64,000 nt of DNA from Chloroflexota bacterium (GTDB lineage: Bacteria; Chloroflexota; Dehalococcoidia; GIF9; UBA5629), in NCBI GenBank assembly GCA_016875875.1, contig VGOP01000005.1, forward strand, positions 1 through 64,000, read 5' to 3'. This document shows, piece by piece, positions 38,297-56,860 of the stretch. The translations under genes and the position numbers were made by a program. Numbering within the stretch: position 1 is the stretch's first letter; each line of letters opens with the position of its first letter. The notes under the pieces were generated by a model. That model was not told the DNA's origin and made no database searches. It saw nothing but the letters and a program-made list of their open reading frames with translations.

Positions 38297-38623
38297 GAGA
38301 GGAACCTTACACGAATGTGGCAAGTTGACATAGATAGTAGTCTAAAGTCTGACCTCTAAAAATAGCATTAGGAAGATTTGTCATCAGTTTTTACAAATTC
38401 AGCAGCACGCCAGGAAATAAGCATTTTGGAGATTTTCCCCGATTGATAAATATACCTTAGTTTTCTGAGAACTGTCAACATATCTGCCGCTGTATTCTAA
38501 ATCGCATCTAAATATAATTTGCTATTCGAGGTATTGGGTGGCATAATTTATCTCGATTTACCAACTGCCGGTTGTCAGTTTGGACCTGACCGCTGGCTAC
38601 ATTTTTGGGTAAGCAGGTAATTG
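38297..38623. other. 327-bp divergent intergenic region before iorA
   Basis: It separates the minus-strand accC operon from iorA. A TATAAT is at 38512-38517 and a degraded copy of the tRNA-Thr 3' half at 38563-38601. No leader peptide or riboswitch was found. Confidence 0.5.
38563..38601 (+). pseudogene. Degenerate tRNA-Thr 3'-half remnant
   Basis: The run ending GACCGCTGGCTACA matches the tRNA-Thr 3' half at roughly three positions in four, and like the 14923 copy has CAG in the T arm. The tRNA 5' half is lacking. It may be an old attachment-site duplicate. Confidence 0.45.
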
Positions 38624-40441
38624 ATGAAGAAACTACTCTCCGGAAACGAGGCCTTTGCCTTAGGGGCTTATCATGCTGGTGTCATGGTGGCAGCAGCCTA
38701 TCCCGGGACGCCAAGCACTGAGATACTCGAATCAATAGCTCGCTTCGATGATATTTATGCCGAGTGGTCAACAAATGAGAAGGTGGCTATGGAGGTGGGT
38801 CTGGGAGCGGCCTATGCTGGTGTTCGAGCCCTGGTGTCTATGAAGCAGGTGGGGCTGAATGTGGCCAGCGACCCCTTTATGGCTGCCTCGATAACCGGCA
38901 TTAATGGTGGGCTGGTGGTGATTGTGGCCGATGACCCGGGAGCATTTAGTACCCAGAACGAGCAGGACACACGCCATTATGCCAAACTGTCTAAGGTGCC
39001 CATGCTCGAGCCCAGCGACAGCCAGGAAGCCTATGACCTGATGGCGGTTGCCTTTGAGATCAGCGAGAAGTTTGATACGCCGGTGCTGGTGCGCTCCAGC
39101 ACCCGCATTTCTCATTCTAAGTCGGTGGTAGTGACGAATCGGAGTCTGGTCACATCGGCGAAACAAGCAAGCTTCAAGCATGATGTAGAGAAGTACGTCA
39201 TGCTGCCGGTCCATGTTCGACTCAGGCGTCCGTTGATAGAGGAACGCCTAGTCAGGCTAACGGCCTATGCCGAGACCTTTCCTCGCAATCATATATTTTG
39301 GGGCGAGCTTAAACTGGGTGTGGTGAGCAGTGGTGTTGCCTACCAGTACGCCAGAGAAGTTTTTCCAAACGCTTGCTTCCTTAAGCTCGGCATGACTTAT
39401 CCTCTGCCGCAGAATTTGCTGCGCCAATTTGCCGAAGGTGTAGAAAGACTAATCGTTGTCGAAGAGCTCGACCCGTTTCTTGAGGAAAATATACTGGCCA
39501 TGGGTATAAAAGTTGCCGGAAAGGAATTTATACCCAGAATAGGCGAGCTGAATACGGGCATTGTTGAGGAAGCGGGTCACCGTGCTGGATTGGTAGCAGA
39601 ACCTTCGCGGAGGAAGATAGCTCTGCCTCAGGGGTTACCGGGACGCCCTCCCGTTCTGTGCGCTGGTTGTCCACATGCTGGCATATTCTTTGTTCTCAAC
39701 ACTGTAGGACAGCGGTCTAAGCTGCTGGATGCTAGAGGCAAGGCAGAAGAGGAAGGCAAATTGATTATCACCGGCGATATCGGTTGCTATACTCTGGCCA
39801 CCTATCCCCCGCTCCGTGCTATGGATACTACCGCCTGCATGGGGGCTGGCATCGGTCAGGCTTTGGGAATGGAGAAGGCCGGCGTTGGCAGCAAGGTGGT
39901 AGCTGTTATCGGCGATTCCACGTTTCTACATTCCGGCATTACCGGCCTGGTGGACGCAGTGTACAACAAAGCGGGGGTGACGATTATAATCCTGGATAAT
40001 GGTACTACTGCTATGACCGGCCATCAAGACCACCCAGGAACCGGCATTTCAGCGAAGGGTAAAAAGACTGAGGCGGTTGAACTGGAGAGACTGGTTAGGG
40101 GGGTTGGAGTTGACGACGTCAAAGTGGTAAATGCCTTTGATATGAAAGCTCTGAGGTCGGCGGTGAGAAGTTCTCTGGATAATACTGAGCTTTCTGTCAT
40201 AATAGTCCGCGGGGCTTGCTCGGTACGGCTGCGGAAACGCTCCGGCCACAGAGCTGTTGATATGGATAAATGCGACGGTTGTGAGGTCTGCCTGAGAATC
40301 GGATGCCCGGCTATACAGAAGCTCGACGAACAGGTTTGCATAGATGCCACTCTGTGTGCTGGAGATGCCTGTACTATCTGTGAGCAGCTTTGCCCCAAGA
40401 AGGCGATAGGCCCGTTGACTGCTGTCGGAGAGTCGAAGTGA
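38624..40441 (+). CDS. iorA: Indolepyruvate:ferredoxin oxidoreductase, alpha subunit
   Basis: A 605-residue thiamine-diphosphate enzyme. IorAB converts arylpyruvate + CoA + oxidised ferredoxin to arylacetyl-CoA + CO2 + reduced ferredoxin, reversibly. The N-terminal pyrimidine-binding domain is GNEAFALGAYHAGVMVAAAYPGTPS (seen in part); the ThDP site is TGDIGCYTL...GAGIGQALG with VAVIGDSTF. The C-terminus has two ferredoxin-type Cys clusters (CDGCEVCLRIGCPA and CAGDACTICEQLCPK). Overlaps iorB by four bases (GTGA), so the subunits are translationally coupled. Confidence 0.95.
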   Translation: MKKLLSGNEAFALGAYHAGVMVAAAYPGTPSTEILESIARFDDIYAEWSTNEKVAMEVGLGAAYAGVRALVSMKQVGLNVASDPFMAASITGINGGLVVIVADDPGAFSTQNEQDTRHYAKLSKVPMLEPSDSQEAYDLMAVAFEISEKFDTPVLVRSSTRISHSKSVVVTNRSLVTSAKQASFKHDVEKYVMLPVHVRLRRPLIEERLVRLTAYAETFPRNHIFWGELKLGVVSSGVAYQYAREVFPNACFLKLGMTYPLPQNLLRQFAEGVERLIVVEELDPFLEENILAMGIKVAGKEFIPRIGELNTGIVEEAGHRAGLVAEPSRRKIALPQGLPGRPPVLCAGCPHAGIFFVLNTVGQRSKLLDARGKAEEEGKLIITGDIGCYTLATYPPLRAMDTTACMGAGIGQALGMEKAGVGSKVVAVIGDSTFLHSGITGLVDAVYNKAGVTIIILDNGTTAMTGHQDHPGTGISAKGKKTEAVELERLVRGVGVDDVKVVNAFDMKALRSAVRSSLDNTELSVIIVRGACSVRLRKRSGHRAVDMDKCDGCEVCLRIGCPAIQKLDEQVCIDATLCAGDACTICEQLCPKKAIGPLTAVGESK

Positions 40442-41037
40442 AAAAGCGAGATTTGCTTATGGTGGGCATGGGTGGGCAGGGTATAGTTTTGGCGAGCGAC
40501 ATATTGGGCGAGGTAGCTCTGGCTGCTGGATATGATGTCAAGAAAACAGATACGCTTGGCATGGCGCAACGAGGAGGCAGTGTGGTAAGTCATGTGCGGA
40601 TAGCTGATAAGGTGTGGTCTCCTTTAATAAAAGAGGGCGAGGTTGACCTTCTGGTCGCTTTTGAGAAATTAGAGGCGGCTAGATGGAGCTACTACCTGCG
40701 TGAGGGCAGTGTGGCGATTGTCAATAATCAGTCAACGCCTCCACTGTCTGTAAGTTTGGGAACTCATCGCTATCCTGGCGATAAAGATATAGAGGACACT
40801 TTGAAGCGATGGGCAGGCCGCGTTTGTTTTGTTAACGGAACACATAAGGCTGAAAAGTTGGGGGATCTCAGGACGCTCAATATGCTTATGCTGGGCTGTG
40901 TGTCGTCCTTTCTGCCCATTGATGTTGATATTTGGAAAGATTGTATTTCTCAACGGCTATCACCGAATATCCTGAAAATGAACATGGCTGCCTTTGACCA
41001 AGGTAGGGAGGAGATGTCAAGTGCCAATCTCAGATAA
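40438..41037 (+). CDS. iorB: Indolepyruvate:ferredoxin oxidoreductase, beta subunit
   Basis: A 199-residue gamma-type domain of 2-oxoacid:ferredoxin oxidoreductases. The family signature GMGGQGIVLASDILGEVA (about residues 10-27) and KKTDTLGMAQRGGSVVSHVRI are clear. The start is GTG 40438, whose last two bases form the iorA stop; an earlier in-frame ATG at 40390 lies in iorA and is unlikely. Its end overlaps the aminotransferase gene by 17 bases. The chain completes the IorAB heterodimer. Confidence 0.95.
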   Translation: MKKRDLLMVGMGGQGIVLASDILGEVALAAGYDVKKTDTLGMAQRGGSVVSHVRIADKVWSPLIKEGEVDLLVAFEKLEAARWSYYLREGSVAIVNNQSTPPLSVSLGTHRYPGDKDIEDTLKRWAGRVCFVNGTHKAEKLGDLRTLNMLMLGCVSSFLPIDVDIWKDCISQRLSPNILKMNMAAFDQGREEMSSANLR

Positions 41038-42208
41038 TGTCAGCAAACGTATGATGGAGGGGTCGTGGATACGGAGGATGTTTGAAGAAGGGGCGAATCT
41101 CAAAAAGCGCTACGGCGAGGAGAATGTTTTCGACCTTTCTATAGGCAATCCGGTCATGGAGCCGCCGCCTGAGTTGAACCAGGAATTGAAGAAGCTGATG
41201 AAAAAACCCATGCCCGGGATGCATAGATACATGGAGAACGCCGGTTATGCGGACACAAGGGCTGCCGTGGCGGTTCAGCTCTCACATGAAACCGGTATCA
41301 AATTCTGCGGAAATGACATTGTCATGACCTGCGGTGCTGCCGGAGGCATGAACGTGGTGCTGAAGACAATACTGAATCCCGGAGACGAGGTGATTGTGTT
41401 CGCTCCTTACTTTATGGAGTTTGGCAACTACATAGACAACCACGGTGGGGTTATCAGGGTTTTGCCTACAAATGAACACTTTATACCGAAGCTCGATGCT
41501 CTGGAAGCTGCCATTACGGCTAAAACAAAGGGTGTAATTATTAATTCTCCCAATAACCCAACCGGCGTTGTCTATAGCCAGGACTTTGTGCGCCAGCTTG
41601 GCGAACTGCTCCGTAGGAAAGAGGCGCAATACGGGACGCAGGTTTTTCTTATAAGCGACGAGGCATACCGGAAAATTATATATGACGGATTACCATACCC
41701 TCCCGTTTTCCATCATTATCGTCACAGTATAGTTGTAACCTCTCATTCTAAAGACCTGGCGCTCCCCGGTGAGCGTATCGGCTATATCGCCATACATCCG
41801 GATTGTAGCCAGCGTGAGGAGCTGGTGAATGGCTTCGTTTTCTGTAACCGGGTATTGGGATTTGTCAACGCACCTGCCTTGATGCAGCACTTGGTAAAGA
41901 ACCTGCAGCATATCACTGTCTCGGTAGCCGATTATCAGAAGAAGAGGGATTTTTTATACGGCAATCTTGTTGACATGGGCTATTCGGTGGTAAAGCCACA
42001 GGGGGCTTTCTATATGTTTCCTAAGTCCCCGCTGAAGGACGACGTTGACTTTGTCAACGAATTGCGACAGTGGAATGTGTTGGTTGTGCCCGGTCGGGGC
42101 TTTGGCACGCCGGGATATTTTCGCATCTCGTACTGCGTTGGCGACAAAACCTTGAAAGGTTCGCTGGCCGGCTTCAAAAAAGCGGCTAAAAAATTTAAAC
42201 TGTGTTAG
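41021..42208 (+). CDS. PLP-dependent aminotransferase, class I/II
   Basis: A 395-residue fold-type I aminotransferase. The PLP Lys is K244 in SHSKDLALPGERIG; INSPNNPTGVVY (about 170) is the Asn/Pro motif and the phosphate-binding Arg is in the same loop. It resembles aspartate/aromatic aminotransferases. In operon with iorAB it most simply interconverts aromatic amino acids and arylpyruvates. The start is GTG 41021, behind GGGAGGAG; the longer frame from 40994 is within iorB. Confidence 0.92.
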   Translation: MPISDNVSKRMMEGSWIRRMFEEGANLKKRYGEENVFDLSIGNPVMEPPPELNQELKKLMKKPMPGMHRYMENAGYADTRAAVAVQLSHETGIKFCGNDIVMTCGAAGGMNVVLKTILNPGDEVIVFAPYFMEFGNYIDNHGGVIRVLPTNEHFIPKLDALEAAITAKTKGVIINSPNNPTGVVYSQDFVRQLGELLRRKEAQYGTQVFLISDEAYRKIIYDGLPYPPVFHHYRHSIVVTSHSKDLALPGERIGYIAIHPDCSQREELVNGFVFCNRVLGFVNAPALMQHLVKNLQHITVSVADYQKKRDFLYGNLVDMGYSVVKPQGAFYMFPKSPLKDDVDFVNELRQWNVLVVPGRGFGTPGYFRISYCVGDKTLKGSLAGFKKAAKKFKLC

Positions 42209-42214
42209 GAAATC

Positions 42215-42667
42215 ATGACAAAGAAAGATAAAGAAAACAGTCAGGCGAGTGCTGTTGATAAAGGCATTGCCTGTGACAGCCTGGCGGAATTAAAGGCGAA
42301 AGCAGGCCGAGAGCCCATTGCCTCCTTCCTGGATATGAGATTGTTGGAGTTATCTCAGGGCTATGCCAAAGTGTCGGCTAAGTTGAAGCCTGAATACCTT
42401 AACTTCAATAATCTGGTCTTCGGCGGCATCGTCATGGCGGTAGCCGACCAGGCTTTTGCCTACGGTACCAACTCGGTAATTACCCCTAACGTGGCCTCGC
42501 AGTTCAACATACATTTTGTCGCCAGCGCCGATGTAAAAGATGAGCTTATCGCCGAATGTCGTGTAGTCAGAGCCGGCAGGCGGGTCTGCATCTCGGAGAT
42601 GACAGTGACCAACCAGGACGGCAAGCTCATAGCCAAAGCCACGGGTACAACTATCCCCCTGGTCTAG
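42215..42667 (+). CDS. PaaI-like hotdog-fold thioesterase
   Basis: A 150-residue acyl-CoA thioesterase of the PaaI/YbgC hotdog superfamily. It has the FNNLVFGGIVMAVADQAFAYGTNS signature (about 64-87, shown in pieces), where the Asn/Asp residues hold the catalytic water, and VASQFNIHFVASADV. PaaI members hydrolyse phenylacetyl-CoA or its ring derivatives. Placed after iorAB and the aminotransferase, it probably frees the arylacetate or buffers its CoA ester. It closes the four-gene operon. Confidence 0.85.
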   Translation: MTKKDKENSQASAVDKGIACDSLAELKAKAGREPIASFLDMRLLELSQGYAKVSAKLKPEYLNFNNLVFGGIVMAVADQAFAYGTNSVITPNVASQFNIHFVASADVKDELIAECRVVRAGRRVCISEMTVTNQDGKLIAKATGTTIPLV

Positions 42668-42883: not shown

Positions 42884-42913
42884 TTGACAAGCTTTTACGG
42901 TTGTTGCTATTAT
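42884..42913 (+). promoter_or_regulatory. Promoter of the aroF leader
   Basis: TTGACA (42884-42889), an 18-base spacer, TATTAT (42908-42913). The leader ATG is 20 bases downstream. The arrangement is almost the same as at 49677-49705. Confidence 0.75.
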
Positions 42914-42932
42914 TTTAGGGATGAAGGTCGAA

Positions 42933-43022
42933 ATGCATAACTTGGCTCGCAGCCATAGCTGGTATTTCTTCGGCTTTTGGTTTGGCACGCCTCGGCGCGG
43001 GTCTGGGATGGCATTGACCTAA
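42933..43022 (+). CDS. aroL-like leader (unnamed): Aromatic-rich leader peptide of the aroF attenuator
   Basis: A 29-codon frame, too short for normal calling. It begins MHNLARSHS, continues WYFFGFWFG (two Trp, one Tyr and four Phe within nine codons) and ends GMALT before TAA at 43020. AAGG lies 6 bases before its ATG. By the trp/phe attenuation principle, a ribosome stalled at the W/Y/F codons would let an antiterminator form (42997-43012 with 43056-43068), whereas one that reaches the stop covers it. The gene controlled is DAHP synthase, the entry to aromatic biosynthesis, which fits. The peptide itself probably has no other function. The symbol field holds a description, not an established name. 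Confidence 0.85.
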   Translation: MHNLARSHSWYFFGFWFGTPRRGSGMALT

Positions 43023-43055
43023 TAAAAAAGTAGTAGAACATCCGAAGCAAGAAAA

Positions 43056-43080
43056 GCCTCCCGCCCGCGGGAGGCTTTTT
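43056..43080 (+). terminator. Intrinsic terminator of the aroF attenuator
   Basis: A 9-bp stem GCCTCCCGC/GCGGGAGGC with a 2-base apex, then TTTTTCTTTTT. It lies 41 bp before the aroF start and 34 bases after the leader stop. Its 5' arm can instead pair with the leader's tail (GCGGG, GGGA and GGC at 42997-43012). Confidence 0.9.
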
Positions 43081-43121: not shown

Positions 43122-44138
43122 ATGATAGTTGAAATGAGGACAGGCGCTGCTCAGCAAGAGGTAGACGACGTAGTGCAGCGGGCTAAGAAGCTGGGGCTGG
43201 GTGTCCAGTTGAATCTGGGCACCAACAAGACGGTTGTAGCTCTGCTGGGGCCCAATACCGGCCAGTTGCCTATAGACACTTTTGCCGTTCTCCCCGGTGT
43301 GGAACGTGTTACCAGGATTATGAAACCCTACAAGCTCGCCGCTCGGGATTTCAAGTCGGAGGACACCGTAGTTTCTGTTAATGGGGTTAAAATCGGCGGT
43401 AAGCGCATCGTGGTCATGGCTGGCCCCTGTGCCGTCGAAGGCGAGAAGCAGCTCATGGCAGCCGCTATGGTGGTAAAGGAGGCTGGAGCCTGTATTCTGC
43501 GAGGTGGTGCCTATAAACCACGTACCTCACCTTTTGCATTTCAAGGCCTGGAGGAGCTCGGTCTGGACTTGTTGCGACAAACCAAGGCGCAGTTCGGCAT
43601 GCCCGTGGTCACCGAGGTGGTGGCACCTCATGACGTCGCCAGGGTATCGCAGTATGCCGACATACTCCAGGTCGGGGCCAGGAATATGCAGAACTATGCT
43701 CTGCTCACCGAGATTGGCAAGAGCAAATGTCCTGTTCTCCTGAAACGAGGCTTATCGGCTACTGTCACCGAGTGGCTCACCGCCGCCGACTATCTATTAG
43801 CTGGTGGAAATGACCAGGTTATACTGTGCGAGAGGGGCATCAGGACATTCGAGGACAGCACCCGTTTCTCTCTGGATATCGGCTCGATCCCGGTAATCAA
43901 GAAATCCAGCCACCTGCCCTTAATTGTTGACCCCAGCCATGCTGCCGGTCACTACTCTTTAGTGCCGGCACTGGCCAAAGCAGCCATAGCCGCTGGGGCT
44001 GACGGTCTGCTCATCGAAGCCCATCCCAATCCCAAGGAGGCCCTGGTGGACGGTCTTCAATCTCTTACACCGTCAGACTTCGCCCGGTTGATGAAGGAGC
44101 TTAAGTCCATTGCCGAAGCAGTGGGAAGGTATATTTAG
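43122..44138 (+). CDS. aroF: DAHP synthase (class I beta type)
   Basis: A 338-residue 3-deoxy-7-phosphoheptulonate synthase: PEP + erythrose-4-phosphate gives DAHP, the first step to chorismate. The N-terminal ferredoxin-like regulatory domain (about 1-70) is typical of the AroA-I-beta form in Thermotoga-like bacteria. The barrel has MAGPCAVEGEKQL (about 105-117), ACILRGGAYKPRTSPFAFQG, LQVGARNMQNYALL and VDPSHAAGHYSLV, with metal and PEP ligands. Transcription is predicted to be attenuated through the W/Y/F leader just upstream; feedback by the N-terminal domain may add control. Single gene. Confidence 0.95.
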   Translation: MIVEMRTGAAQQEVDDVVQRAKKLGLGVQLNLGTNKTVVALLGPNTGQLPIDTFAVLPGVERVTRIMKPYKLAARDFKSEDTVVSVNGVKIGGKRIVVMAGPCAVEGEKQLMAAAMVVKEAGACILRGGAYKPRTSPFAFQGLEELGLDLLRQTKAQFGMPVVTEVVAPHDVARVSQYADILQVGARNMQNYALLTEIGKSKCPVLLKRGLSATVTEWLTAADYLLAGGNDQVILCERGIRTFEDSTRFSLDIGSIPVIKKSSHLPLIVDPSHAAGHYSLVPALAKAAIAAGADGLLIEAHPNPKEALVDGLQSLTPSDFARLMKELKSIAEAVGRYI

Positions 44139-46431: not shown

Positions 46432-49400
46432 TTATTCTTTTCCGGTATCTCTGCTCCAGTAGCTCTGAGTTTGCTTCAGCACGGTAACTGTGGGGTCCAG
46501 AAATAGTTCCCTGACTACTATCCTGACCTCCTCATGTGAGGCGATGTAGGCAGCGGCAGGTGGACTGACCTGGTAATAAAACTTGACAAGAGCCGTGCCA
46601 GGCTCGCTTTGCAGCAGGACCTTATCCCGGAATGCCCGCAGGGTGTCCAGCTCTTCAGCAGTGTGGCTGCCGTAAGCTGCCGTAGCGATAAAGCATTGCG
46701 GAATCTTTATCGTTATTTCGGGGAAACCACCCGAGTCATCTGTGTCATCTCCGATAATCTTAATTTTCTTTGAATAGGAGTCTTCCCCACCCCTGCCATC
46801 GTCCACCTCCAGGCGCATTACATGTCCGCCAGCCTGTGGTTTTTTCCATTTCCAGCTTGCTGAGTCTGTATATTCGTCCATAAGCTGTCCGTCGAGGTGC
46901 CAGGTGAATCCAAGCTTGTCTCCATCGGCATCAGTTGACTGGCTGACTATCTTGATGCTATCGCCGGCTTCAGGTTGAGGGGGTTCAATCACAAAATATG
47001 CCTTGGGCGGACTATTAACTCCCGGTATTGGCCCCGGACCTGGTTGGGGTTGTGCCTGAGTTACGTTGACCTGCGTCTGTACGGCGCCTGTTCCGCCCTT
47101 ACCATCGCTTATCGATAGACGGATGGTGTGCATTCCAGCGGTTGGATTTGGCCAGATACAGGAGGGCACGTTATTGAATTCATTGGCCTGGATCCCATCT
47201 CGGAACCAGGCGTATGTCAAGGGGTCACCATCGGGGTCAGTCGATGTACTGGTGGCTATGATGGTATCGCTGGTTGTCGGTGCTTGCGGTGTTATGGAGA
47301 AGGAAGCAATGGGAATCCGGTTAGTTTCTGGCGTAGGTCCCGGTGGAATGGGTTGTGGCGCCTGAGATACAGTGATTTGCGCCTGGAAGGAAGATGTACC
47401 GCCCTTACCATCGCTTATCAACAGACGGATGGTGTGTACTCCGGCTGTTGGGTTCTGCCAGATGAAGTAAGGCATATTATTGTATTGGCTGGCAGTTGTT
47501 CCATCAAGCGACCATGAATATGACAGAGGGTCACCGTCGGGGTCGGATGATTGGCTTATGGTTGTAACTATATCACTTGTTGTCGGTGATTGCGGAGTGG
47601 TAAGAAAAGAGGCAATAGGTGGATGGTTTTCAGGTTGGGGTTGTACATCCTGTTCGATTAAGGTGCCATCCCAGTCACCGTTCCAGTCGTCACAAGAGCC
47701 GTATCTCCAGTTACCGATGAATTCCATCCGGTTTTTGGAAATTTGGAATTCGAAATTACCGGCGTCATCCGGTTCGGAGTAGGACGGAGACTTAGACCAG
47801 GTACCGGTTAAAAAATTGCCGGAAGTGGTACCCTCTATTTCGCCGTCGTTATACTCGTATGTGCCGCTTACCTGTTCACCGTCTTGGGAAAGCTGCATCT
47901 CGCCCCAGTCCGTGTTCCAGGTTCCGCCCCAGTCCACCAGTATTGTGACATCAGATTGTGGCGAGGTCACCCTTACGGCTGGCGCAGGCAGGGTGTACCA
48001 GGTAGGGCTAGATGAAAGGCTATGGCTGTAACGCCCAGTAAACGAGTTACAGTCTGCTGAAATGGTAAGCTGCATACGCCCCGTTCTAGTTTGTTCTGTC
48101 CAGGTTCCCTCAAACGCGTTTCCAGACACAGTCCCATCGATAGTTCCTGTATAGTTCCAGCCGCCCGGGATATATGTGCCGGTTACATGATTGCCTGTTT
48201 GCACGAGCTTTAATTCATTCGACCAGTCGAAGTCCCAGGTACCGCTCCAGTCACAGGTGGAGGTGACAGTAATTGGTTGTGGTGTGCTCGTTTTGGTGCC
48301 TGTCCAACCGCCCCAGGTGCCTGAAGTACCGTATCTCCAGTGACCGGTAAAGGACTGTCCGTCAGCAGACAGGGTAAACTCCATATCTCCGGCGTCTTTG
48401 GGTGGAGCGTAAGAAGGATATTCGGACCACCAGCCGCTCAACATGTTACCTGTTACGGTACCGGATATTTTGCCGCTGTCATGTGCGTAGCTGCCTGTCA
48501 CCTGATTACCGCTCTGAGACAGTGTCATCTGGCCCGCGCTTGTCTGCCATGTTCCGCTCCAGCCGCCGGTTGGGGTTATGGGTGTGGGTGTGGGTGTCGG
48601 CGTAGGTGTTGGGGGTGCTGGTTGCTCAGCTCTTGTTCCCCTGATGTCGCCATCCCAATCGCAGGGGCCAGATGTCCACTCGCCGGTGAATGATTTACAA
48701 TCAGGTGAAAGTTTGAATATGAAGTCTCCGGTATAAAGCGGAGGCTGGTACGATAGTCCTTCGCTCCAGGTGCCGGTAGCCGTATTACCGTCGACGGTTC
48801 CTGCAATTTTGCCGTCCCCGTTGTCATAAGTACCTGTCAGGGTATTGCCAACCTGGCGAAGGTTTATCTCTCCATATTCAGTATCCCATTTTCCGGTGAA
48901 CTGGCAACCGACTCCTGGAGTAGGTGTTGGTGTGGGAGTAGGACTAGGCGTGGGAGTAGGAGTAGGCGTGGGAGTAGGAGTAGGCGTAGGCGCAGGTGTT
49001 GGTGTAGGTGTAGGTGTAGGTGGAATATATGGTGGTTGTACGGGACTTGTTTCAGTCCTTTTCCCGGTTACCACGAAGCGTGCATCCCAAGTATAGTGAT
49101 ATTGGCCCTTGAAAATACCGTTGAAGCTTATTCCTGAAGGGTCCAGCGTAAGCTGAACCTCTCCGGATATATGTGGAGCCGCAATATAGGTACTGGTGTT
49201 AGGATCCCAAATTGGCGGTAAGTCAGGAGCAGACCAGGTGCCGGTTAACGAGTTGCCCGATACGGTGCCGTTCAGTTGCCAATTGTAGTAGCTGGAGGTA
49301 CCGGTTACCGTGCTACCCGATTGTGCAAGTGTCATGTCGAATTGGTAGGTCTTGAAGGAACCATATTCCATGATGGTCCAGCTGGTTTGCCAGACTCCAT

Positions 49401-49518
49401 TCCATGCCATCTCAGGACGTCCACCATTGGCAAAAGCAGGAGTGGGTGGTGTGCTGAAGCTGGCCATTGAGAATAGCAGGGCTAATAGTCCCAGAGCGTA
49501 CATTATCCTTTTCAACAT
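46432..49518 (-). CDS. Large secreted repeat protein with CFI-box C-terminus
   Basis: A 1028-residue exported protein. The signal peptide is MYALGLLALLFSMASF (within residues 1-31). Five modules of about 90 residues follow, each GTW...L.QSGN.VTGTY...G.I.GTVSGN...GTW, the first separated from the rest by a Pro-Thr linker (PTPTPT repeats, near 163-203). Then come three Ig/PKD-like domains (SSDPDGDPLSYSW, STDPDGDPLTYAW, STDADGDKLGFTW), and last a CFI-box (CFIATAAYGSHTAEELDTLR, near 940) with the usual helix that follows. Such C-termini are thought to serve surface sorting. It is probably a surface adhesin- or carbohydrate-binding-like protein; function unproven. AAGGAGG precedes the ATG. Confidence 0.8.
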   Translation of the reverse strand: MLKRIMYALGLLALLFSMASFSTPPTPAFANGGRPEMAWNGVWQTSWTIMEYGSFKTYQFDMTLAQSGSTVTGTSSYYNWQLNGTVSGNSLTGTWSAPDLPPIWDPNTSTYIAAPHISGEVQLTLDPSGISFNGIFKGQYHYTWDARFVVTGKRTETSPVQPPYIPPTPTPTPTPAPTPTPTPTPTPTPTPSPTPTPTPTPGVGCQFTGKWDTEYGEINLRQVGNTLTGTYDNGDGKIAGTVDGNTATGTWSEGLSYQPPLYTGDFIFKLSPDCKSFTGEWTSGPCDWDGDIRGTRAEQPAPPTPTPTPTPTPITPTGGWSGTWQTSAGQMTLSQSGNQVTGSYAHDSGKISGTVTGNMLSGWWSEYPSYAPPKDAGDMEFTLSADGQSFTGHWRYGTSGTWGGWTGTKTSTPQPITVTSTCDWSGTWDFDWSNELKLVQTGNHVTGTYIPGGWNYTGTIDGTVSGNAFEGTWTEQTRTGRMQLTISADCNSFTGRYSHSLSSSPTWYTLPAPAVRVTSPQSDVTILVDWGGTWNTDWGEMQLSQDGEQVSGTYEYNDGEIEGTTSGNFLTGTWSKSPSYSEPDDAGNFEFQISKNRMEFIGNWRYGSCDDWNGDWDGTLIEQDVQPQPENHPPIASFLTTPQSPTTSDIVTTISQSSDPDGDPLSYSWSLDGTTASQYNNMPYFIWQNPTAGVHTIRLLISDGKGGTSSFQAQITVSQAPQPIPPGPTPETNRIPIASFSITPQAPTTSDTIIATSTSTDPDGDPLTYAWFRDGIQANEFNNVPSCIWPNPTAGMHTIRLSISDGKGGTGAVQTQVNVTQAQPQPGPGPIPGVNSPPKAYFVIEPPQPEAGDSIKIVSQSTDADGDKLGFTWHLDGQLMDEYTDSASWKWKKPQAGGHVMRLEVDDGRGGEDSYSKKIKIIGDDTDDSGGFPEITIKIPQCFIATAAYGSHTAEELDTLRAFRDKVLLQSEPGTALVKFYYQVSPPAAAYIASHEEVRIVVRELFLDPTVTVLKQTQSYWSRDTGKE
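48920..49025. repeat. Simple-sequence run coding the Pro-Thr linker
   Basis: A GTAGGT/GTGGGA-type hexamer run inside the large repeat-protein gene. On the coding strand it encodes alternating Pro and Thr. It is prone to slippage, so linker length may vary between strains. Confidence 0.7.
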
Positions 49519-49676: not shown

Positions 49677-49705
49677 TTGACAGGCTTTGCTCCTTGTGCT
49701 ATTAT
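49677..49705 (+). promoter_or_regulatory. Promoter of the Phe leader
   Basis: TTGACA (49677-49682), a 17-base spacer, TATTAT (49700-49705). It is an excellent match to consensus. The leader ATG is 21 bases further on. It closely resembles the aroF promoter. Confidence 0.8.
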
Positions 49706-49725
49706 GATTTCTCGTGAGTTTCGAA

Positions 49726-49812
49726 ATGCATACTCAGGTTCGCAGCTTTAACTTCTTTTTCTTCTTTTTCTTTAGCATGCCTGCTGGCGAGCCTGGGAGG
49801 ACATTGGCCTAA
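49726..49812 (+). CDS. Phe-rich leader peptide of the LIV operon 2 attenuator
   Basis: A 28-codon frame: MHTQVRS, then F-N, then seven consecutive Phe codons, then SMPAGEPGRTLA and TAA at 49810. The start context (TCGAAATGCAT), CGCAGC and the end (ACATTGGCCTAA) resemble the aroF leader, so the two share ancestry. The arm GCCTGGGAGG (49791-49800), inside the last codons, can pair with CCTCCC-AGGC of the terminator (49855-49865) with a single bulge. A ribosome stalled on Phe codons leaves this free; a ribosome at the stop codon covers it. Thus low charged tRNA-Phe should switch on the acyl-CoA synthetase/LIV genes. No clear ribosome site precedes the ATG. Confidence 0.88.
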   Translation: MHTQVRSFNFFFFFFFSMPAGEPGRTLA

Positions 49813-49853
49813 ACGGAGAAGAAACAGGAAGAGCAGTACACCGAAAGAAAAAA

Positions 49854-49878
49854 GCCTCCCCAGGCGGGAGGCTTTTTT
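49854..49878 (+). terminator. Intrinsic terminator of the Phe attenuator
   Basis: A 7-bp stem GCCTCCC/GGGAGGC with loop CAGGC, preceded by a run of A and followed by six T. It lies 40 bp before the acyl-CoA synthetase start and 41 bases after the leader stop. It competes with the antiterminator described for the leader. Confidence 0.9.
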
Positions 49879-49918
49879 GTTAGGGGTAAAGTTGGCAGTA
49901 GATTAAGGCAAAAAGTAT

Positions 49919-51814
49919 ATGGTGGCTAGAGAGACAATACCGCAACTTATCAAGAGCAACTACGAGAACTGGGGGCAGAGAACTGCCATGTCCAGGAAGT
50001 ACCGTGGCGTCTGGCGGCAGTATAACTGGAAAGAATGCTACGAAAAAGTGAAATATTTTTCCCTGGGGCTGATAAGCCTCGGCTTTAAGCCTGGAGATGT
50101 GCTCTGCATAATCGGCGATAATGAGCCTGAATGGTTCTGGGGAGAATTCGCGGCTCAAGCCGCCGGCGGTATCGCCACCGGAATTTTCGTTGATGCTATT
50201 CCTTCTGAGGTTAAATATGTTGCCGCTCACTCAGGCGCTAAGTTCGCCCTGGTTAATGACCAGGAGCAGACCGATAAATTCCTGGAGATTAAAGATGAGC
50301 TGCCTTCACTGAAGAAAGTTATTTACTGGGACCCGAAAGGCTTGAAAAACTACGATGACCCCATCTTAATCAGCTTCGCCGAAGTAGTAGAAATGGGCGG
50401 AAAATATGAGAAAAAGCATCCGAAATTATTTGAGCAGAATTTGAAGAAGGGGAAGGGTGGCGACAATGCCTTTATTTACTACACATCAGGTACTACCGGC
50501 TTGCCCAAAGGGGCAGTGCTTACCCATAAAGCGCTGATAAATACCGCACAAGGGTTTGTCAGTCGTTTTCCGCTAACGGAGAACGATGATTTAGTCTCCA
50601 ACTTTCCGCCGGCATGGGTGGGCGATAGTTTCTTTGCCACTATTCCCCATCTGCTTACCGGAGCCAAGCTTAATTTCCCCGAAGAGCCGGAGACCATCGC
50701 TGAAGATACTCGGGAGGTCGGCCCTGAATTTGTCATATATGGCCCGCGTCAGTGGGAGAGCCTGGTCAGTGAGATTCAAGTGAAAATGACCGATGCTAAT
50801 CCTATAAAGCGCTTCTTCTACAGACTGTTCATGCCGGTAGGCTATAAGATTGCTGACATTAGCTTCGAGGACAAAACACCGGGTTTGTTGTGGCGGGCGC
50901 TTCATGGGGTAGCGCATGCATTTCTGTTCCGACCGCTTAAGGATAAGCTGGGATTAAGCAAGGTCAGGTTGGCTGTTACCGGCAGCTCTGTGTTGAGCCT
51001 GGATACCTTTCGCCTCATCCATGCCATAGGCATTGAGCTCAGGCAGAACTATGCCAGCACCGAAGCCGGCTTTATCTCGTCTCATGGTAAGAGAGAGATT
51101 GACTTCCAGAGTGTAGGCAGGCCGGCAGCGGGCGTGGAAGTCAGGTTAACTAATGAAGGGGAATTGCTGGTCAGAAGTGATTGCCTCTTCAAAGAATACT
51201 ATAAAGACCCGGAGAAGACGACGGCTGTAGTGGTAAACGGGTGGTGTCGGACCGGGGATGCAGTCAATATAAATGACGCGGGACACTTAATATTTATGGA
51301 CCGGCTGGAGCACATGGGAGAGCTGGCTTCCGGCACCAGGTATGCGCCTCAGTATATCGAGGGCAGGCTTAGGTTCAGCCCCTACATTAAGGATGCCATG
51401 GTTGTGGGTGGCAAGGATAGAGAGTTCGTCTGTGCCATGGTGAACATGGATTTTGCTATGGTAGGCAAGTGGGCTGAGCGCAATAGCATTCCCTATACCA
51501 CTTTCGTTGACCTGTCTCAGAAAAAAGAGGTTGCTGATTTGGTGCAGAAAGACCTGGTTCGTGTGAACAGCTATTTACCGGAGGCATCCAGGGTTAAGAA
51601 ATTCGTCCTGTTGCATAAGGAGTTCGACCCCGATGAAGCTGAGCTTACTCGGACCAGAAAACTGAGAAGGGACTTTATGGAGCAACGGTACAAGGATTTA
51701 ATCGACGCCATGTACAGCGATAAAAAGAGCGTGATTGTAGAGGCGCCGATAACATACAGGGACGGTAGAAAAGGTGTGGTGAGCACAGATATCTATGTTA
51801 GAAAGGTGAACTGA
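49919..51814 (+). CDS. AMP-forming acyl-CoA synthetase in LIV operon 2
   Basis: A 631-residue paralogue of the enzyme at 20.8 kb, with the same layout: YYTSGTTGLPKGAVLTHKA (motif from about residue 187), NYASTEAGFI, CRTGDAVNINDAGH and DRLEHMGELASGTRYAPQ, and the shared C-terminal block AELTRTRKLRRDFMEQRYKDLI. It forms acyl-CoA from a carboxylate. Control by a Phe leader suggests the natural substrate is an aryl acid such as phenylacetate, but the protein looks long-chain-like, so this is open. The ATG at 49919 has a weak site (AAGGC). It is followed directly by livH. Confidence 0.9.
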   Translation: MVARETIPQLIKSNYENWGQRTAMSRKYRGVWRQYNWKECYEKVKYFSLGLISLGFKPGDVLCIIGDNEPEWFWGEFAAQAAGGIATGIFVDAIPSEVKYVAAHSGAKFALVNDQEQTDKFLEIKDELPSLKKVIYWDPKGLKNYDDPILISFAEVVEMGGKYEKKHPKLFEQNLKKGKGGDNAFIYYTSGTTGLPKGAVLTHKALINTAQGFVSRFPLTENDDLVSNFPPAWVGDSFFATIPHLLTGAKLNFPEEPETIAEDTREVGPEFVIYGPRQWESLVSEIQVKMTDANPIKRFFYRLFMPVGYKIADISFEDKTPGLLWRALHGVAHAFLFRPLKDKLGLSKVRLAVTGSSVLSLDTFRLIHAIGIELRQNYASTEAGFISSHGKREIDFQSVGRPAAGVEVRLTNEGELLVRSDCLFKEYYKDPEKTTAVVVNGWCRTGDAVNINDAGHLIFMDRLEHMGELASGTRYAPQYIEGRLRFSPYIKDAMVVGGKDREFVCAMVNMDFAMVGKWAERNSIPYTTFVDLSQKKEVADLVQKDLVRVNSYLPEASRVKKFVLLHKEFDPDEAELTRTRKLRRDFMEQRYKDLIDAMYSDKKSVIVEAPITYRDGRKGVVSTDIYVRKVN

Positions 51815-52699
51815 ATGGCAGAATTGCTTCAATATACGATTACTGGCATAGCCGTGGGCATGGTTTATGCTCTTATTGCTCTGGGTTTTGCCTTAATCTG
51901 GAAGTCCAGCAGTGTGGCAAATCTGGCTTTAGGACAGCTTGTGTTGATTTCCTCCTGGTTCACCTACGGTATGCTAGTGCAGGCGAAGTTACCCTACTGG
52001 ATTGGCTTCCCCCTGACCATACTTTTTGCCATATTTCTCGGCTGGATGATTGAAAGATTCACTTTGCGCCCCCTGATTGCTCAACCTATCCTGGCGCTAA
52101 TCACAGTGACCTTGGGAGTAGGCTACTTTCTCGAGGGTGTGGTCACTTTTATCTGGCCTATGAGCGTGGCCGCTTTGCCTCGCCTTTTCCCACAGGAGCC
52201 GGTTCATATTGGTCCAGCGGTAGTTTCTCAGGAGTATATTTGGGCGGCGGGAATATCGCTGCTTCTCTTCGGCATATTATCCTTGTTCTTCAAGTATCAC
52301 AAGATGGGTATTGCCATGCGGGCGACAGCCGATGACCAGATGGCGGTTCAAGCCTGTGCTATTCCGGTGACCAGTGTCTTTTCTATGTCATGGATTTTCG
52401 CCTGTGTAGTAGCCGCCATCGGCGGCGTTCTGGTATCCAGCATCGGCGGCATTACCTTTGGTCTGGTTGAAACCGGGTTGAAATCGTTCTCGGTGGTGAT
52501 ACTTGGCGGCCTGGATTCCTTCATCGGCTGCATGGTGGCTGGACCGATAATAGGGCTGTGCGAGAACCTCGGCGGTGGCTATCTCACTCCGCTGATTGGT
52601 CCTGGAATTAAAGACATCATCCCGTTCATTATCATAATAATCGTTATGATTGTTAAGCCTTACGGCCTATTTGGAGAGACACGTATAGAGAGGATATAA
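51815..52699 (+). CDS. livH: LIV-type ABC permease LivH, operon 2
   Basis: A 294-residue permease with the same span pattern as the operon 1 LivH and the coupling loop MRATADDQMAVQACAIP. It begins immediately after the synthetase stop (no gap), so translation is probably coupled. LGGGYLTPLIGPGIKDIIPF lies before the last span. It is the partner of LivM, three bases downstream. Confidence 0.93.
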   Translation: MAELLQYTITGIAVGMVYALIALGFALIWKSSSVANLALGQLVLISSWFTYGMLVQAKLPYWIGFPLTILFAIFLGWMIERFTLRPLIAQPILALITVTLGVGYFLEGVVTFIWPMSVAALPRLFPQEPVHIGPAVVSQEYIWAAGISLLLFGILSLFFKYHKMGIAMRATADDQMAVQACAIPVTSVFSMSWIFACVVAAIGGVLVSSIGGITFGLVETGLKSFSVVILGGLDSFIGCMVAGPIIGLCENLGGGYLTPLIGPGIKDIIPFIIIIIVMIVKPYGLFGETRIERI

Positions 52700-52703: not shown

Positions 52704-53753
52704 ATGGATTTACCCTGTGGTACCCGTAATTACGACTATGCCAGAGATATGGCTGTCTTGCGAACCAAGACCCATTGGGCACTTTTTATTGGCCTGCTGG
52801 TTATTGTTTTCGCGGCTCCACTGTATTTAGGTAACTACTGGCTGGGTGTATGCAACTTAATTGGCATTACCATAATCACTATCACCGGTTTGAACATACT
52901 TACTGGCTACTGTGGGCAGCTATCCATTGGTCATGCTGGCTTCATGGCTGTAGGCGCCTATACTACCGCGATTTTGACTAATAAGCTTGGTTTTCCATTC
53001 TTAGCCGGGCTTATCTGTTCTGGCTTCAGTGCCGGGCTGATAGGACTTATCTTTGGCCTTCCCTCAGTGCGCGTTAAAGGTTTCTATCTGGCAATTACCA
53101 CTATTGCGGCTCAATTTATCATCATCTGGGTTATCAATCACTGGTCACTAACCGGTGGCTTTGTTGGCATAAGCGTTCCGCCTGCCTCAATTGGTGGTTT
53201 CGTGTTCAAAACTGAGGCCAGCCAGTTCTACCTGATAATGGTAATCACAGCAATCTGTATATTGTTCGCCAAAAACCTGGCCAGGAGCAGAGTTGGCAGA
53301 GCCTTTATTGCTGTCAGGGATAATGACCTGGCTGCCGAAGTTATGGGGATTAATCTGCTCTACTATAAGCTTCTGGCTTTCTTTATCGGTTGTTTTCTTG
53401 CTGGAATCGCCGGTGCCCTGCTTGCCCATTGGACCGGATTCCTGAATGCCGAGAACTTTACCCTCACCGATTCCATACTGTATATAGGCATGGTGATTAT
53501 CGGCGGGCTGGGCACAACCATCGGTCCTATACTGGGCGCGGCTCTAATTCGGCTTTTACAACAGGGCATAATGTATATTTCTCCGGTCCTGGAAAGCGCT
53601 TTTCCTGCAATACCGGCTGGCTTTACCAGTGGCATAGCGCCGATGGTATTCGGTCTGGTGATTATCCTGTTTCTGATACTTGAGCCGCGGGGGCTGGCAC
53701 GCCGCTGGACATTGTTCAGGGCTGCCTATCGCCTGTGGCCATTCTCATATTAA
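52704..53753 (+). CDS. livM: LIV-type ABC permease LivM, operon 2
   Basis: A 349-residue permease. Its N-terminal tail MDLPCGTRNYDYARDMAVLR corresponds to that in operon 1, a shared mark of the two systems. ILTGYCGQLSIGHAGFMAVGA and the coupling loop RSRVGRAFIAVRDNDLAAEV are the LivM signatures. Ends with RRWTLFRAAYRLWPFSY. It forms the channel with LivH. Confidence 0.93.
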   Translation: MDLPCGTRNYDYARDMAVLRTKTHWALFIGLLVIVFAAPLYLGNYWLGVCNLIGITIITITGLNILTGYCGQLSIGHAGFMAVGAYTTAILTNKLGFPFLAGLICSGFSAGLIGLIFGLPSVRVKGFYLAITTIAAQFIIIWVINHWSLTGGFVGISVPPASIGGFVFKTEASQFYLIMVITAICILFAKNLARSRVGRAFIAVRDNDLAAEVMGINLLYYKLLAFFIGCFLAGIAGALLAHWTGFLNAENFTLTDSILYIGMVIIGGLGTTIGPILGAALIRLLQQGIMYISPVLESAFPAIPAGFTSGIAPMVFGLVIILFLILEPRGLARRWTLFRAAYRLWPFSY

Positions 53754-53826: not shown

Positions 53827-55092
53827 GTGACAAGAAAATCATTTATAGTAACTGGAATTTTATGCCTGGCACTGATAGTGGCGGTATTGCCCTTTGCCGG
53901 TGCCTGCGCTCCCAAAGCCCAGCCGGGGCAGGTATTGAAAGTGGGCATGATGAACCCTACCACCGGCCCGGCGGCTGAGAAGGGGAGCGTGATGACTCAT
54001 GCCAACCTTGATGCCATCAAATACATTAATGACGAGCTCGGCGGCGCTGGAGGATACGCTATTGAAGTGTTGTCTTTAGACAGTAACTACGATGCCGCCA
54101 AAGCGGTTACCATCGTTAAGAGATTTATGGACGAAGGCTGCTTGCTGTTCACCACCGCGTCATCCAAGGAGATGTCGGCGGCCATGACATCGGCTAATAC
54201 GGCTGGATTTCCTGGCATCTCTTGCTTTAACGCACCTTCATTGTACCGTCCCCCGCAGCACATCTACGGCCAAACGCCTGACTATGGCGATGATGCTTTA
54301 GCCTTCGCCAACTTCTATATGAAGAACATCTGGAAGGGGACGGGCAAGCCAAAGTTCGCCCTGCATCTGCTCAATAATACTACCGGTTACGGAGCCCGCG
54401 ATGCCTTTAAGGCTAAGGCTGACGAACTGGGTATTGAGATTGTTTCTACCGATGAGCATGCTGCTACAACCACCTCCGAGATCGAGTCATTGACCCGCAT
54501 TAAGGGAAAAAACCCCGATGTGTTATATATCTCTAGCACGCCGGCACCCACTGCCGTCATTATTAAAAATGCCAAAGACCTTGGTATGTATCCAGGTATA
54601 ACCATCGGCTGCTGCCACGCTGGCTTGACTAAAGCTCTCATTGACTTAGCCGGTGCCGATGTTGTTGAAGGCGTTTATGGCGCATTTCCTACGGTGCTGT
54701 GGGGAGAGGATGTGCCTGGCATGGCTAAGATGGCGGAATATTGTCAGAAGTTGCACCCCAACGACTACGGAAACGGCGACTATATTACCTCGTGGGCACA
54801 AAGCCTGATTGTGGCCAAGATTCTTGAGCTGGCGGTAAAAAATGCCGGCTATGATGCACTGGCAAAGGGAGATGTGTCAGCATGGCAGGCTGTCGAGACG
54901 AAGGGTATACAGAAGCTGAAGAATTATGATGTTGGCGGCCTTCATGGACCAGTCAGTTATACTGTGGGGGACAATAGACTTGATAAGTCCAATCGGATTT
55001 ACAAGATAGTAGGCGGTAAAATAGCCGAACCAAGCGCATGGGTTGAAGCGCCTATGGTTAAATATGAAGAGTATGATTGGTTTGGTAAGTGA
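53827..55092 (+). CDS. LIV-type substrate-binding lipoprotein, operon 2
   Basis: A 421-residue binding protein anchored through Cys27 (AGAC). It is only distantly related to the pair in operon 1, so it probably binds a different ligand. Family features are VGMMNPTTGPAAEKGS near the mature N-terminus, NTAGFPGISCFNAPS and TGYGARDAFKAKADELG. The start is GTG 53827 behind AAGGAGGAA. The ligand is not deducible by eye; an aryl acid or aromatic amino acid would agree with the Phe leader upstream. Confidence 0.9.
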   Translation: MTRKSFIVTGILCLALIVAVLPFAGACAPKAQPGQVLKVGMMNPTTGPAAEKGSVMTHANLDAIKYINDELGGAGGYAIEVLSLDSNYDAAKAVTIVKRFMDEGCLLFTTASSKEMSAAMTSANTAGFPGISCFNAPSLYRPPQHIYGQTPDYGDDALAFANFYMKNIWKGTGKPKFALHLLNNTTGYGARDAFKAKADELGIEIVSTDEHAATTTSEIESLTRIKGKNPDVLYISSTPAPTAVIIKNAKDLGMYPGITIGCCHAGLTKALIDLAGADVVEGVYGAFPTVLWGEDVPGMAKMAEYCQKLHPNDYGNGDYITSWAQSLIVAKILELAVKNAGYDALAKGDVSAWQAVETKGIQKLKNYDVGGLHGPVSYTVGDNRLDKSNRIYKIVGGKIAEPSAWVEAPMVKYEEYDWFGK

Positions 55093-55156: not shown

Positions 55157-55948
55157 ATGCTTAAACTGAACAACATCGAAGTTGCCTATCTGAACGTGAT
55201 AAGGGTATTGCATGGCATCTCCATGGCTGTGGAGAACTGCTCTGTTGTTGCTTTGCTCGGAGCCAATGGTGCCGGCAAGACCACCACGCTCAAGGCGATA
55301 TCCGGCCTGCTCCAGGTCGAGGAGGGTGAGGTGGTTGACGGCAGCATTGAGTGGGACGGCCAGAGAATTGACAAAAAGAGCGCTGTTGATATAGGCAAGC
55401 TGGGCATTGTCCAGGCACTGGAAGGACGGCGTGTCTTCGGTCATCTGACTACGGAGGAGAACCTGATGGTGGGCGCTCATAACCGCAACGACCGCCATGA
55501 CATCAGAGAAGACTTGAGCATGGTTTATGATTACTTCCCCCGGCTCAAGAATCTGCGACATAACATCGCCGGCTATCTTTCCGGCGGTGAGCAGCAGATG
55601 CTGGTTATAGGCAGAGCAATGATGTCGGCTCCGAAGCTTATGATGCTCGATGAGCCGTCATTGGGACTGGCACCGATGCTGGTTGAAGAGATTTACGACA
55701 TCATACAGCGATTCAATACCGAGAAGAAAACATCTATTCTGCTCGTGGAGCAGAATGTCAGAATTGCCCTCAATATCGCCCATTACGGCTACGTGATGGA
55801 AAATGGACGGGTTGTCCTCGATGGCACTGCCGATTTCCTGAAGAATAACGAGGATGTGAAGGAGTTTTACATGGGATTATCGGCAGTTGGCGCCAAGAAG
55901 AGTTATCGCTCGGTCAAGCATTACAAAAGGCGCAAGCGATGGCTTTAA
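55157..55948 (+). CDS. livF: LIV-type ABC ATPase LivF, operon 2
   Basis: A 263-residue ATPase with Walker A GANGAGKTT, signature LSGGEQQMLV, Walker B MMLDEPSLGLAPML and LVEQNVR. Its C-terminus (KHYKRRKRWL) matches the operon 1 LivF, so the two arose by duplication of a whole cassette. It ends the plus-strand operon, 85 bp from the convergent livG. Confidence 0.93.
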   Translation: MLKLNNIEVAYLNVIRVLHGISMAVENCSVVALLGANGAGKTTTLKAISGLLQVEEGEVVDGSIEWDGQRIDKKSAVDIGKLGIVQALEGRRVFGHLTTEENLMVGAHNRNDRHDIREDLSMVYDYFPRLKNLRHNIAGYLSGGEQQMLVIGRAMMSAPKLMMLDEPSLGLAPMLVEEIYDIIQRFNTEKKTSILLVEQNVRIALNIAHYGYVMENGRVVLDGTADFLKNNEDVKEFYMGLSAVGAKKSYRSVKHYKRRKRWL

Positions 55949-56040
55949 AAGTTAAAATGTAAAATACAAAAGTCAAATTTGCAAGCTAAAATGTAAAGCG
56001 GCAGTTTTATTTGTATTGGTGCTTTTTGGTTTTTAACTTT
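55949..56040. repeat. A+T-rich repeat, copy C, between convergent livF and livG
   Basis: Terminal inverted words AAAAGTTAAAA and TTTTTAACTTTTGAC lie at each edge and reach into the stop codons of both genes. It is related to copies at 42725 and 63541. Confidence 0.4.
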
Positions 56041-56860
56041 TGACTTGTTCCGTTCCCAGATACGCTGATATGACCTGCGGGTTGGTTTTGATTTCATCTG
56101 GCGTGCCCTCGGCAATCTTGCGCCCGAAATCAAGAACCACGATCCTGTCAGCAATATCCATCACCACCCCCATGTCATGCTCCACCAGGACTATACAGCT
56201 AACCCCGTCTCTTAATGCTGGCGTTTCGGGATATGTTTCTCCCTGTCCCTCGAATATATCTATGATGAACCGGGCGATGTCTTCCTTTTCTTCCAAGTTC
56301 ATGCCTGCCATCGTTTCGTCGAGTAGCAGTATTTTTGGCTCCAGCGCCAGTGCCCTGCCCAGTTCAACTCGCTTCCGCATTCCGTAAGGCAGAGCGCCGA
56401 CCACCTTTTTTCTAATTGGTTCTATTTCCAGGAAGTCGATGATATCCTCCACTGCTTTACGGTGTTCAATTTCCTCCTTGTGGGCCGGGCCGAAATATAG
56501 AGCGCTGCTGAGCGTGCTTTGCTTCATCAGGACATGCCTGGCAGCCATTAGATTGTCTAAGGTGCTCAGGCCGGAATAAAGCTCGATATTCTGGAAAGTT
56601 CTGGCTATGCCCATTTTGGCTATCTTGTCCGGGCGAAGCCGGGTTATTTTTCGTCCTTCGTAGTATATTTCCCCTTCTTGTGGCTTATAGAAGCCGTTTA
56701 TGCAGTTGAGTATGCACGTCTTGCCGGCGCCGTTAGGCCCGATGATAGCCAAAATCTCCTTGTCTCGTACATCCAGGCTTACATCTACAAGGGCTCTAAC
56801 TCCGCCGAAGGAGAGGCAGAGGTTTTCAATACGCATCTTTACGTTATTCTGGCTCGTCAT
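56033..56860 (-). CDS. livG: LIV-type ABC ATPase LivG, inverted relative to operon 2
   Basis: A 275-residue ATPase resembling the operon 1 LivG (GPNGAGKT, INGFYKPQEGEIYYEGRKITRL, ALPYGMRKRVELGRAL). Walker B reads LLLDETMAGM: Thr for the usual Pro after DE. A short insert (FEGQGETYPETPALRDG, near 210-226) separates the core from VLVEHDMGV. It lies on the opposite strand, convergent to the operon that needs it, so it must be expressed from its own promoter and is outside Phe-leader control. Confidence 0.9.
   Translation of the reverse strand: MTSQNNVKMRIENLCLSFGGVRALVDVSLDVRDKEILAIIGPNGAGKTCILNCINGFYKPQEGEIYYEGRKITRLRPDKIAKMGIARTFQNIELYSGLSTLDNLMAARHVLMKQSTLSSALYFGPAHKEEIEHRKAVEDIIDFLEIEPIRKKVVGALPYGMRKRVELGRALALEPKILLLDETMAGMNLEEKEDIARFIIDIFEGQGETYPETPALRDGVSCIVLVEHDMGVVMDIADRIVVLDFGRKIAEGTPDEIKTNPQVISAYLGTEQVKS

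Follow-up and report, generated by a model that had tools for sequence, protein, structure and literature searches.

Why does a leader with a run of Phe codons stand before an operon for an acyl-CoA synthetase and a LIV-type transporter? The question arises in a stretch of 64,000 nucleotides (the window) of an uncultured Chloroflexota bacterium from the class Dehalococcoidia. Its genome has 1.97 Mb in 20 contigs. A sequence-only reading of this DNA had proposed ribosome-mediated attenuation at the site, and saw no tie between the controlled genes and Phe metabolism. Taken as a whole, the locus is probably best explained by an attenuator that senses Phe-tRNA, placed before an operon for the salvage of aryl acids.

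The leader in the window and its folding

A sigma-70-type promoter, TTGACA-17-TATTAT, is present at 49677-49705 of the plus strand, with 11 of the 12 consensus matches. Its boxes occupy 49677-49682 (TTGACA) and 49700-49705 (TATTAT), and the spacer has 17 nt. The ORF of the leader peptide follows at 49726-49812 (plus strand). It encodes MHTQVRSFNFFFFFFFSMPAGEPGRTLA in 28 codons plus the stop and has orthologous leaders in relatives. Eight codons are for Phe, and seven of them are consecutive, forming the putative sensor (49753-49773, plus strand). The last leader codons contain the antiterminator arm GCCTGGGAGG (49791-49800, plus strand). It is complementary to CCTCCCCAGGC at 49855-49865, with a computed duplex energy of -18.9 kcal/mol. 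This second stretch is the 5' arm and loop of an intrinsic terminator, GCCTCCC-CAGGC-GGGAGGC plus T6 (49854-49878, plus strand). More precisely, the hairpin spans 49854-49872 and the T6 tract 49873-49878. Promoter, leader, arm and terminator had all been described by the sequence-only reading, and every coordinate that it gives agrees to the base. A simple terminator scan of the window did not call the hairpin at 49854-49878, most likely because its A-tract can pair with the T-run as well. The hairpin is clear once the RNA is folded.

A run of Phe codons might also lie next to an ordinary terminator by chance. Folding at equilibrium, described below, would fit such a coincidence, as it always gives the terminator. 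Nevertheless, the run of seven occurs a single time when all 64 kb are read in six frames, and none of 40 simulated windows (order-2 Markov) contains it. Moreover, the Phe codons, the spacing and the pairing are conserved across several genera. A chance origin was rejected on these grounds, and we regard it as extremely improbable.

The sequence-only reading had suggested folding the region with a ribosome at the Phe run and at the stop codon. At equilibrium, the terminator of the full-length RNA fully outcompetes the antiterminator, whatever the position of the ribosome. For this reason, equilibrium folding was dropped as proof of the switch. It follows that the switch must be kinetic, and kinetic switching is usual for such attenuators. 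Staged folding separates the two states. When the ribosome waits at the last Phe codon, the antiterminator gains about 10 pairs while the terminator still lacks its 3' arm, and it keeps them until the RNA end is at about 49870-49872. With the ribosome at the stop codon, no antiterminator pairs form. As for a 1:2 protector, the window has only a small hairpin that leaves the arm uncovered; a protector hairpin is present in the type B relatives described in the next section.

Very likely, the region 49677-49878 is an attenuator of transcription that is mediated by the ribosome and responds to the charging of tRNA-Phe. Stalling among the Phe codons would keep the arm 49791-49800 free. The free arm would then pair with the emerging 5' arm and loop of the terminator, and the polymerase would enter the operon. 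A ribosome at the stop codon would cover the arm; the terminator would form, and transcription would end. Phe shortage would thus raise the expression of the operon. We infer the stalling and the control of termination, whereas the anatomy is observed directly. If the operon is raised at Phe shortage, its products should supply Phe.

The enterobacterial pheA and pheST leaders combine a short Phe-rich ORF, competing antiterminator and terminator structures, and derepression at Phe-tRNA shortage. The leader in the window has the same kind of ORF and the same competition, and derepression is expected. However, it comes from another phylum, its target is an uptake and CoA-activation operon, and it belongs to no Rfam leader family at threshold. 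The 1:2 protector hairpin is also not established in poly-Phe leaders, unlike in pheA and pheST.

The Rfam search of the window returned two tRNAs only, with no leader or T-box family at gathering score. In Dehalococcoides, of the same class, a survey lists three T-boxes per genome, for ileS, trpE and trpB-like genes and none for Phe (PMC2494555). These T-boxes also act at the RNA level through tRNA charging. Nevertheless, their contact with the tRNA is direct and requires no leader peptide, and no T-box reaches threshold in the window. The actinobacterial trp, leuS and ilvB attenuators likewise have repeated regulatory codons and a terminator. They concern other amino acids in another phylum, and the excerpt of PMC1262725 that describes them reports no Phe leader. 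The sequence-only reading knew of no Phe leader before such an operon. We likewise found no paper describing one, nor any that ties leader peptides or attenuation in Dehalococcoides or Chloroflexi to Phe (subscription papers lay outside the search).

Phe leaders at the orthologous operons

The Chloroflexota records contain 76 orthologous loci. Eight carry a poly-Phe leader (type A) and 47 a Phe-x-Phe leader (type B). Neither is recognised in the other 21, which include some loci without upstream DNA. The closest named relatives of the synthetase are from metagenome-assembled Dehalococcoidia or Chloroflexi (for example, L147, 90%; L220, 85%; L207, 83%).

Type A leaders occupy eight distinct genomic loci, at the same place before the orthologous operon. 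The set consists of G000, G026 (two copies), G018, G011, G021, G027 and the second copy of G028; the leader peptide of G027 is identical in G028. They have seven or eight Phe codons, with TTT and TTC mixed. These codons are kept, and the remainder of the peptide varies except for the end that forms the pairing arm. The last Phe codon and the arm are 18 nt apart in seven of the eight leaders and 17 nt apart in one. Another 10-11 nt separate the arm from the stop. With this spacing, a ribosome waiting for Phe would leave the arm free, and one at the stop would cover it.

The pairing between leader and terminator is specific. Own pairs reach -22.0 kcal/mol and swapped pairs -20.0 kcal/mol, and 0.4% of the permutations are as good (relatedness uncontrolled). 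In G011, both pairing partners changed together (CCCGGGAGG/CCTCCCGGG). The sequence-only reading had suggested an alignment of related genomes, in which a lack of conserved Phe codons or paired arms would speak against the attenuator. The comparison gives the opposite result. The Phe codons, the arm spacing and the matched arm and terminator are all conserved in the relatives.

Type B leaders are found in 47 Dehalococcoidia orthologs at the same position as type A (for example, L153 9790-9959). Their layout is an ATG, about 11 variable codons, TTC-NNN-TTT, ACC, a hairpin GCGCAC/GTGCGC, the arm GGGAGG and the terminator CCTCCC/GGGAGG. Over the 47 leaders, 53 ATGs are in frame, against 4 and 3 off frame. 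Likewise, a stop interrupts the leader frame in one of the 47, against 24 and 23 in the other two frames. By these ATG and stop statistics, the type B leader is translated. The antiterminator is again specific (own -17.3, swapped -15.7; 0 of 20000 permutations as good, relatedness uncontrolled). In L170 and L175, arm and terminator are altered together (TTAGAGG with CCTCTAA). The outer pairs of the type B hairpin take up the arm, making a 1:2 protector as in trp leaders. The pairing test of this 1:2 hairpin has little power (6% of the permutations as good), since its stem hardly varies. An Rfam search of five type B loci, to E 0.5, gave no match at the leader. With no Rfam match there or at the leader in the window, a T-box, riboswitch or other described RNA was rejected for the leader.

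Both Phe residues of the Phe-x-Phe motif are present in 47 of 47 type B leaders, and the middle residue is free. The third codon of the motif is TTT in all of them. The hairpin core GCGCA/TGCGC is nearly invariant, without covariation, and Glu and Lys are favoured ahead of the motif. The invariance of the TTT codon and of the core is greater than codon sensing needs. Each of these features, together with the presence of two Phe codons only, would agree with a nascent-chain arrest peptide or a sequence-specific RNA element. Type B would then not count Phe codons, and type A would be a later re-invention. We consider this unlikely. At the same locus, poly-Phe replaced Phe-x-Phe. Furthermore, the same platform bears Val/Ile codons before ilvE, Tyr codons before a hisC-like gene, Met codons before an ilvE paralog and Trp/Tyr/Phe codons before aroF. 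The sensing of Phe codons is thus the likelier reading for type B as well.

In the synthetase tree, type A and a leaderless group form one supported clade (97/81) amid type B sequences. Because of this position, type A probably replaced type B once. It was probably lost later, upon the joining of the synthetase to the aminotransferase gene. In 11 orthologs the synthetase is joined behind iorAB and the aminotransferase, and they have no leader at all.

Related leaders before other genes

The window contains a paralogous leader 6.8 kb upstream of the Phe leader. It encodes MHNLARSHSWYFFGFWFGTPRRGSGMALT, ending in a stop (42933-43022, plus strand), and has Trp, Tyr and Phe codons. Its terminator, GCCTCCCGCCCGCGGGAGGC with a T-run, is at 43056-43080 (plus strand). 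The gene behind it encodes a DAHP synthase of the aroF type (43122-44138, plus strand; TIGR01361, NF006421). In a DNA search, the leader region 42928-43080 is 69% identical to the Phe leader. In the DAHP synthase leaders, the arm CGCGGG faces the loop CCCGCG. We delimit this putative second attenuator as 42884-43080. Between the DAHP synthase and the Phe attenuator, the minus strand encodes a large secreted protein (46432-49518), in which domains are repeated and long runs of Thr-Pro occur.

Two models were searched at order and class level. R1 is a covariance model of the Phe and DAHP synthase leaders, and R2 is the type B model. With R1, most of the family's genomes, and some outside the family, show similar leaders with Trp, Tyr and Phe codons ahead of DAHP synthase. 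The R1 and R2 searches also gave a leader with Tyr and Phe codons before DAHP synthase, and leaders with Val and Ile codons before ilvE (IlvE 324.5 bits, cut-off 245.55). The Val/Ile leaders are those of L231, L233, L234, L235, L249 and L253 (for example, MIAPVVLVTIVVAAAILIVRTDGAHGRILQPAR). In L247 and L248, the leader has a run of Met codons (GAMMMRPMLTHGR) and precedes an ilvE paralog, which may be a methionine-related aminotransferase. In L283 (G319:C9:54549-54712), eight consecutive Tyr codons precede a hisC-like aminotransferase gene that follows his genes.

Phe-x-Phe leaders occur in other contexts too. One separates the gene of a TrpX-like binding protein from those of its permease and ATPase and of a Na-dependent symporter (L252, G032:C113). 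Another precedes two family III CoA-transferases (L287, G319:C21:24000-42000). The cluster of L287 includes 2-hydroxyacyl-CoA dehydratase-like proteins, activases and a GlcD-like oxidase, and adjoins iorAB. It is possibly an aryllactate route to Phe. In L246 and L250 (G082:C2), an aminotransferase of the ior-linked family, with its gene in two frames, stands behind a short ORF that contains codons for Tyr, Phe and Trp (VYYFFRLWSKSA). Leaders containing Tyr also precede a molybdopterin oxidoreductase gene (L282) and the gene of a TRAP-type binding protein (L285).

The codon content of these leaders follows the pathway of the gene behind them. This is our strongest single argument that Phe is what the leader in the window senses. 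The leaders would form a natural series, with one RNA platform whose sensor codons changed between pathways. Ribosome-mediated attenuation is thereby indicated as common in a class where the survey of PMC2494555 reports only T-boxes.

The downstream operon and its probable link to Phe

The first gene of the operon encodes an AMP-forming acyl-CoA synthetase (49919-51814; PF00501, PF23562), with only generic relatedness to characterised ligases. It is followed by LivH-like (51815-52699) and LivM-like (52704-53753) permeases, both PF02653. A LivJ-like substrate-binding protein (53827-55092; PF13458) and a LivF-like ATPase (55157-55948) come next, all on the plus strand. A LivG-like ATPase is on the minus strand (56033-56860), an arrangement common to many relatives. 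The fold relatives of the LivJ-like protein bind branched-chain amino acids or aromatic acids. Its AlphaFold model (pLDDT 85) matches binders of valine, leucine, urea, p-coumarate, phenylpyruvate and 4-hydroxybenzoate about equally, and the best fold match is a valine-bound protein. The ligand is thus not assignable from structure, since amino acid and aromatic acid binders match about equally.

A PaaK-like ligase gene lies directly behind livF in 33 loci, nearly all of type B. Its best models are those of phenylacetate-CoA ligase, with 195 bits, far below the cut-off of 646. The operon in the window has no PaaK-like gene behind livF; such genes of the genome are at other places and share about 42-47% identity with the type B copy. 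The window also contains a second acyl-CoA synthetase/LIV-type operon at 19962-29579. Its synthetase is 51% identical, and it has two similar binding proteins and no leader. Since this operon and other paralogs of about 50% identity have no leader, we rejected the possibility that the leader is general to acyl-CoA synthetase/LIV operons.

Four genes on the plus strand, 7-11 kb upstream of the operon, bear on its role. The first is iorA, for the alpha subunit of indolepyruvate:ferredoxin oxidoreductase (38621-40441; TIGR03336 700.5 bits, equivalog cut-off 650.9). The second is iorB, for the beta subunit (40390-41037; 234.9 against 237, just below the cut-offs). They are followed by a class I aminotransferase (40994-42208), with orthologs directly before the acyl-CoA synthetase in 11 relatives, and by a PaaI-like hotdog thioesterase (42215-42667; TIGR02286 78.3 bits, below cut-off).

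The linkage is observed in relatives too. The genes iorA, iorB, aminotransferase, synthetase and liv form one run in G025, G024, G019, G020, G016, G004, G010 and G014. Upstream DNA of at least 4 kb is available for 48 loci. In 32 of them it includes both iorA and iorB, and in 39 it includes any of the four genes. G095 is a complete genome of 1.5 Mb that belongs to another family. Here a single intergenic region, with the leader MKYAGYTYFYFMFTGRTLCALSGAADE, lies between the synthetase-liv-PaaK operon and iorAB, which are oriented divergently. The sequence-only reading had correctly named the controlled genes as an acyl-CoA synthetase/LIV-type operon. It did not see their tie to Phe metabolism through the linked iorAB, the aminotransferase and, in type B operons, the PaaK-like ligase. 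No leader was seen before iorA or prephenate dehydratase in the loci inspected. With prephenate dehydratase encoded in its genome, the host can synthesise Phe de novo.

From these data we infer the substrate and the direction of the pathway. The LIV-type transporter would import an aryl acid, phenylacetate or similar, and the acyl-CoA synthetase would activate it to the CoA thioester. The neighbouring IorAB would reductively carboxylate arylacetyl-CoA to arylpyruvate (phenylpyruvate), and the neighbouring aminotransferase would convert phenylpyruvate to Phe. This salvage would supplement the cell's own Phe synthesis, for which prephenate dehydratase is retained. In Methanococcus maripaludis, aryl acids reportedly enter aromatic amino acids through IOR (PMC3462420). 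The route proposed here likewise uses IorAB. It differs in being bacterial and tied to a LIV-type transporter, AMP-forming ligases and a Phe attenuator. Import and CoA thioester formation, both induced at Phe shortage, would adjoin iorAB and an aminotransferase. For this reason, salvage of aryl acids to Phe, derepressed at Phe-tRNA shortage, seems the likelier role of the operon.

The attenuator could also be real while the transporter imports Phe or other amino acids, with an unrelated role for the synthetase. The families are LIV-type throughout, the binding protein is closest in fold to a valine-bound protein, and a Phe-x-Phe leader also precedes the TrpX-like amino acid transporter. However, the synthetase is always the first gene, and the operon either adjoins iorAB and the aminotransferase or is continuous with them. 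In addition, type B operons have the second, PaaK-like ligase, and one Phe-x-Phe leader precedes CoA-transferases near iorAB instead. Amino acid import is therefore a possibility to which we give limited weight.

The cluster might instead degrade Phe through phenylpyruvate and phenylacetyl-CoA to phenylacetate, with the leader serving another purpose. IorAB has been discussed as catabolic in the fermentation of aromatic amino acids (PMC5817080), and a PaaI-like thioesterase is present. Nevertheless, attenuation would raise expression at Phe shortage, whereas an operon for degradation would need the reverse. An AMP-forming ligase also spends ATP to make a CoA thioester rather than gaining it, and related leaders precede the biosynthetic aroF and ilvE. 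Degradation is thus quite improbable, and salvage remains our preferred role for the operon.

The mechanism would be a known one, ribosome-mediated attenuation. The target is unexpected and suggests aryl-acid salvage. In this case the leader would name the amino acid served by an orphan transporter/CoA-ligase operon, which homology cannot do. The prediction is that these anaerobes rebuild Phe from aryl acids when Phe is short. A wider proposal concerns the Dehalococcoidia in general, and here we see the chances as evenly balanced. The class would have an undescribed modular platform of leader attenuators with exchanged sensor codons (Phe, Trp/Tyr/Phe, Tyr, Val/Ile and perhaps Met). With it would go a salvage route under Phe control, in which scavenged aryl acids are activated with CoA and reductively carboxylated to give Phe. 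This would include Dehalococcoides-like organisms, as which we take G095 and its kin, and Dehalogenimonas-like ones, presumably g91. Another RNA element was seen near the operon of one relative, where the minus strand of L204 carries a molybdenum/tungsten cofactor riboswitch at 3069-3212 (RF01055, 55.7 bits).
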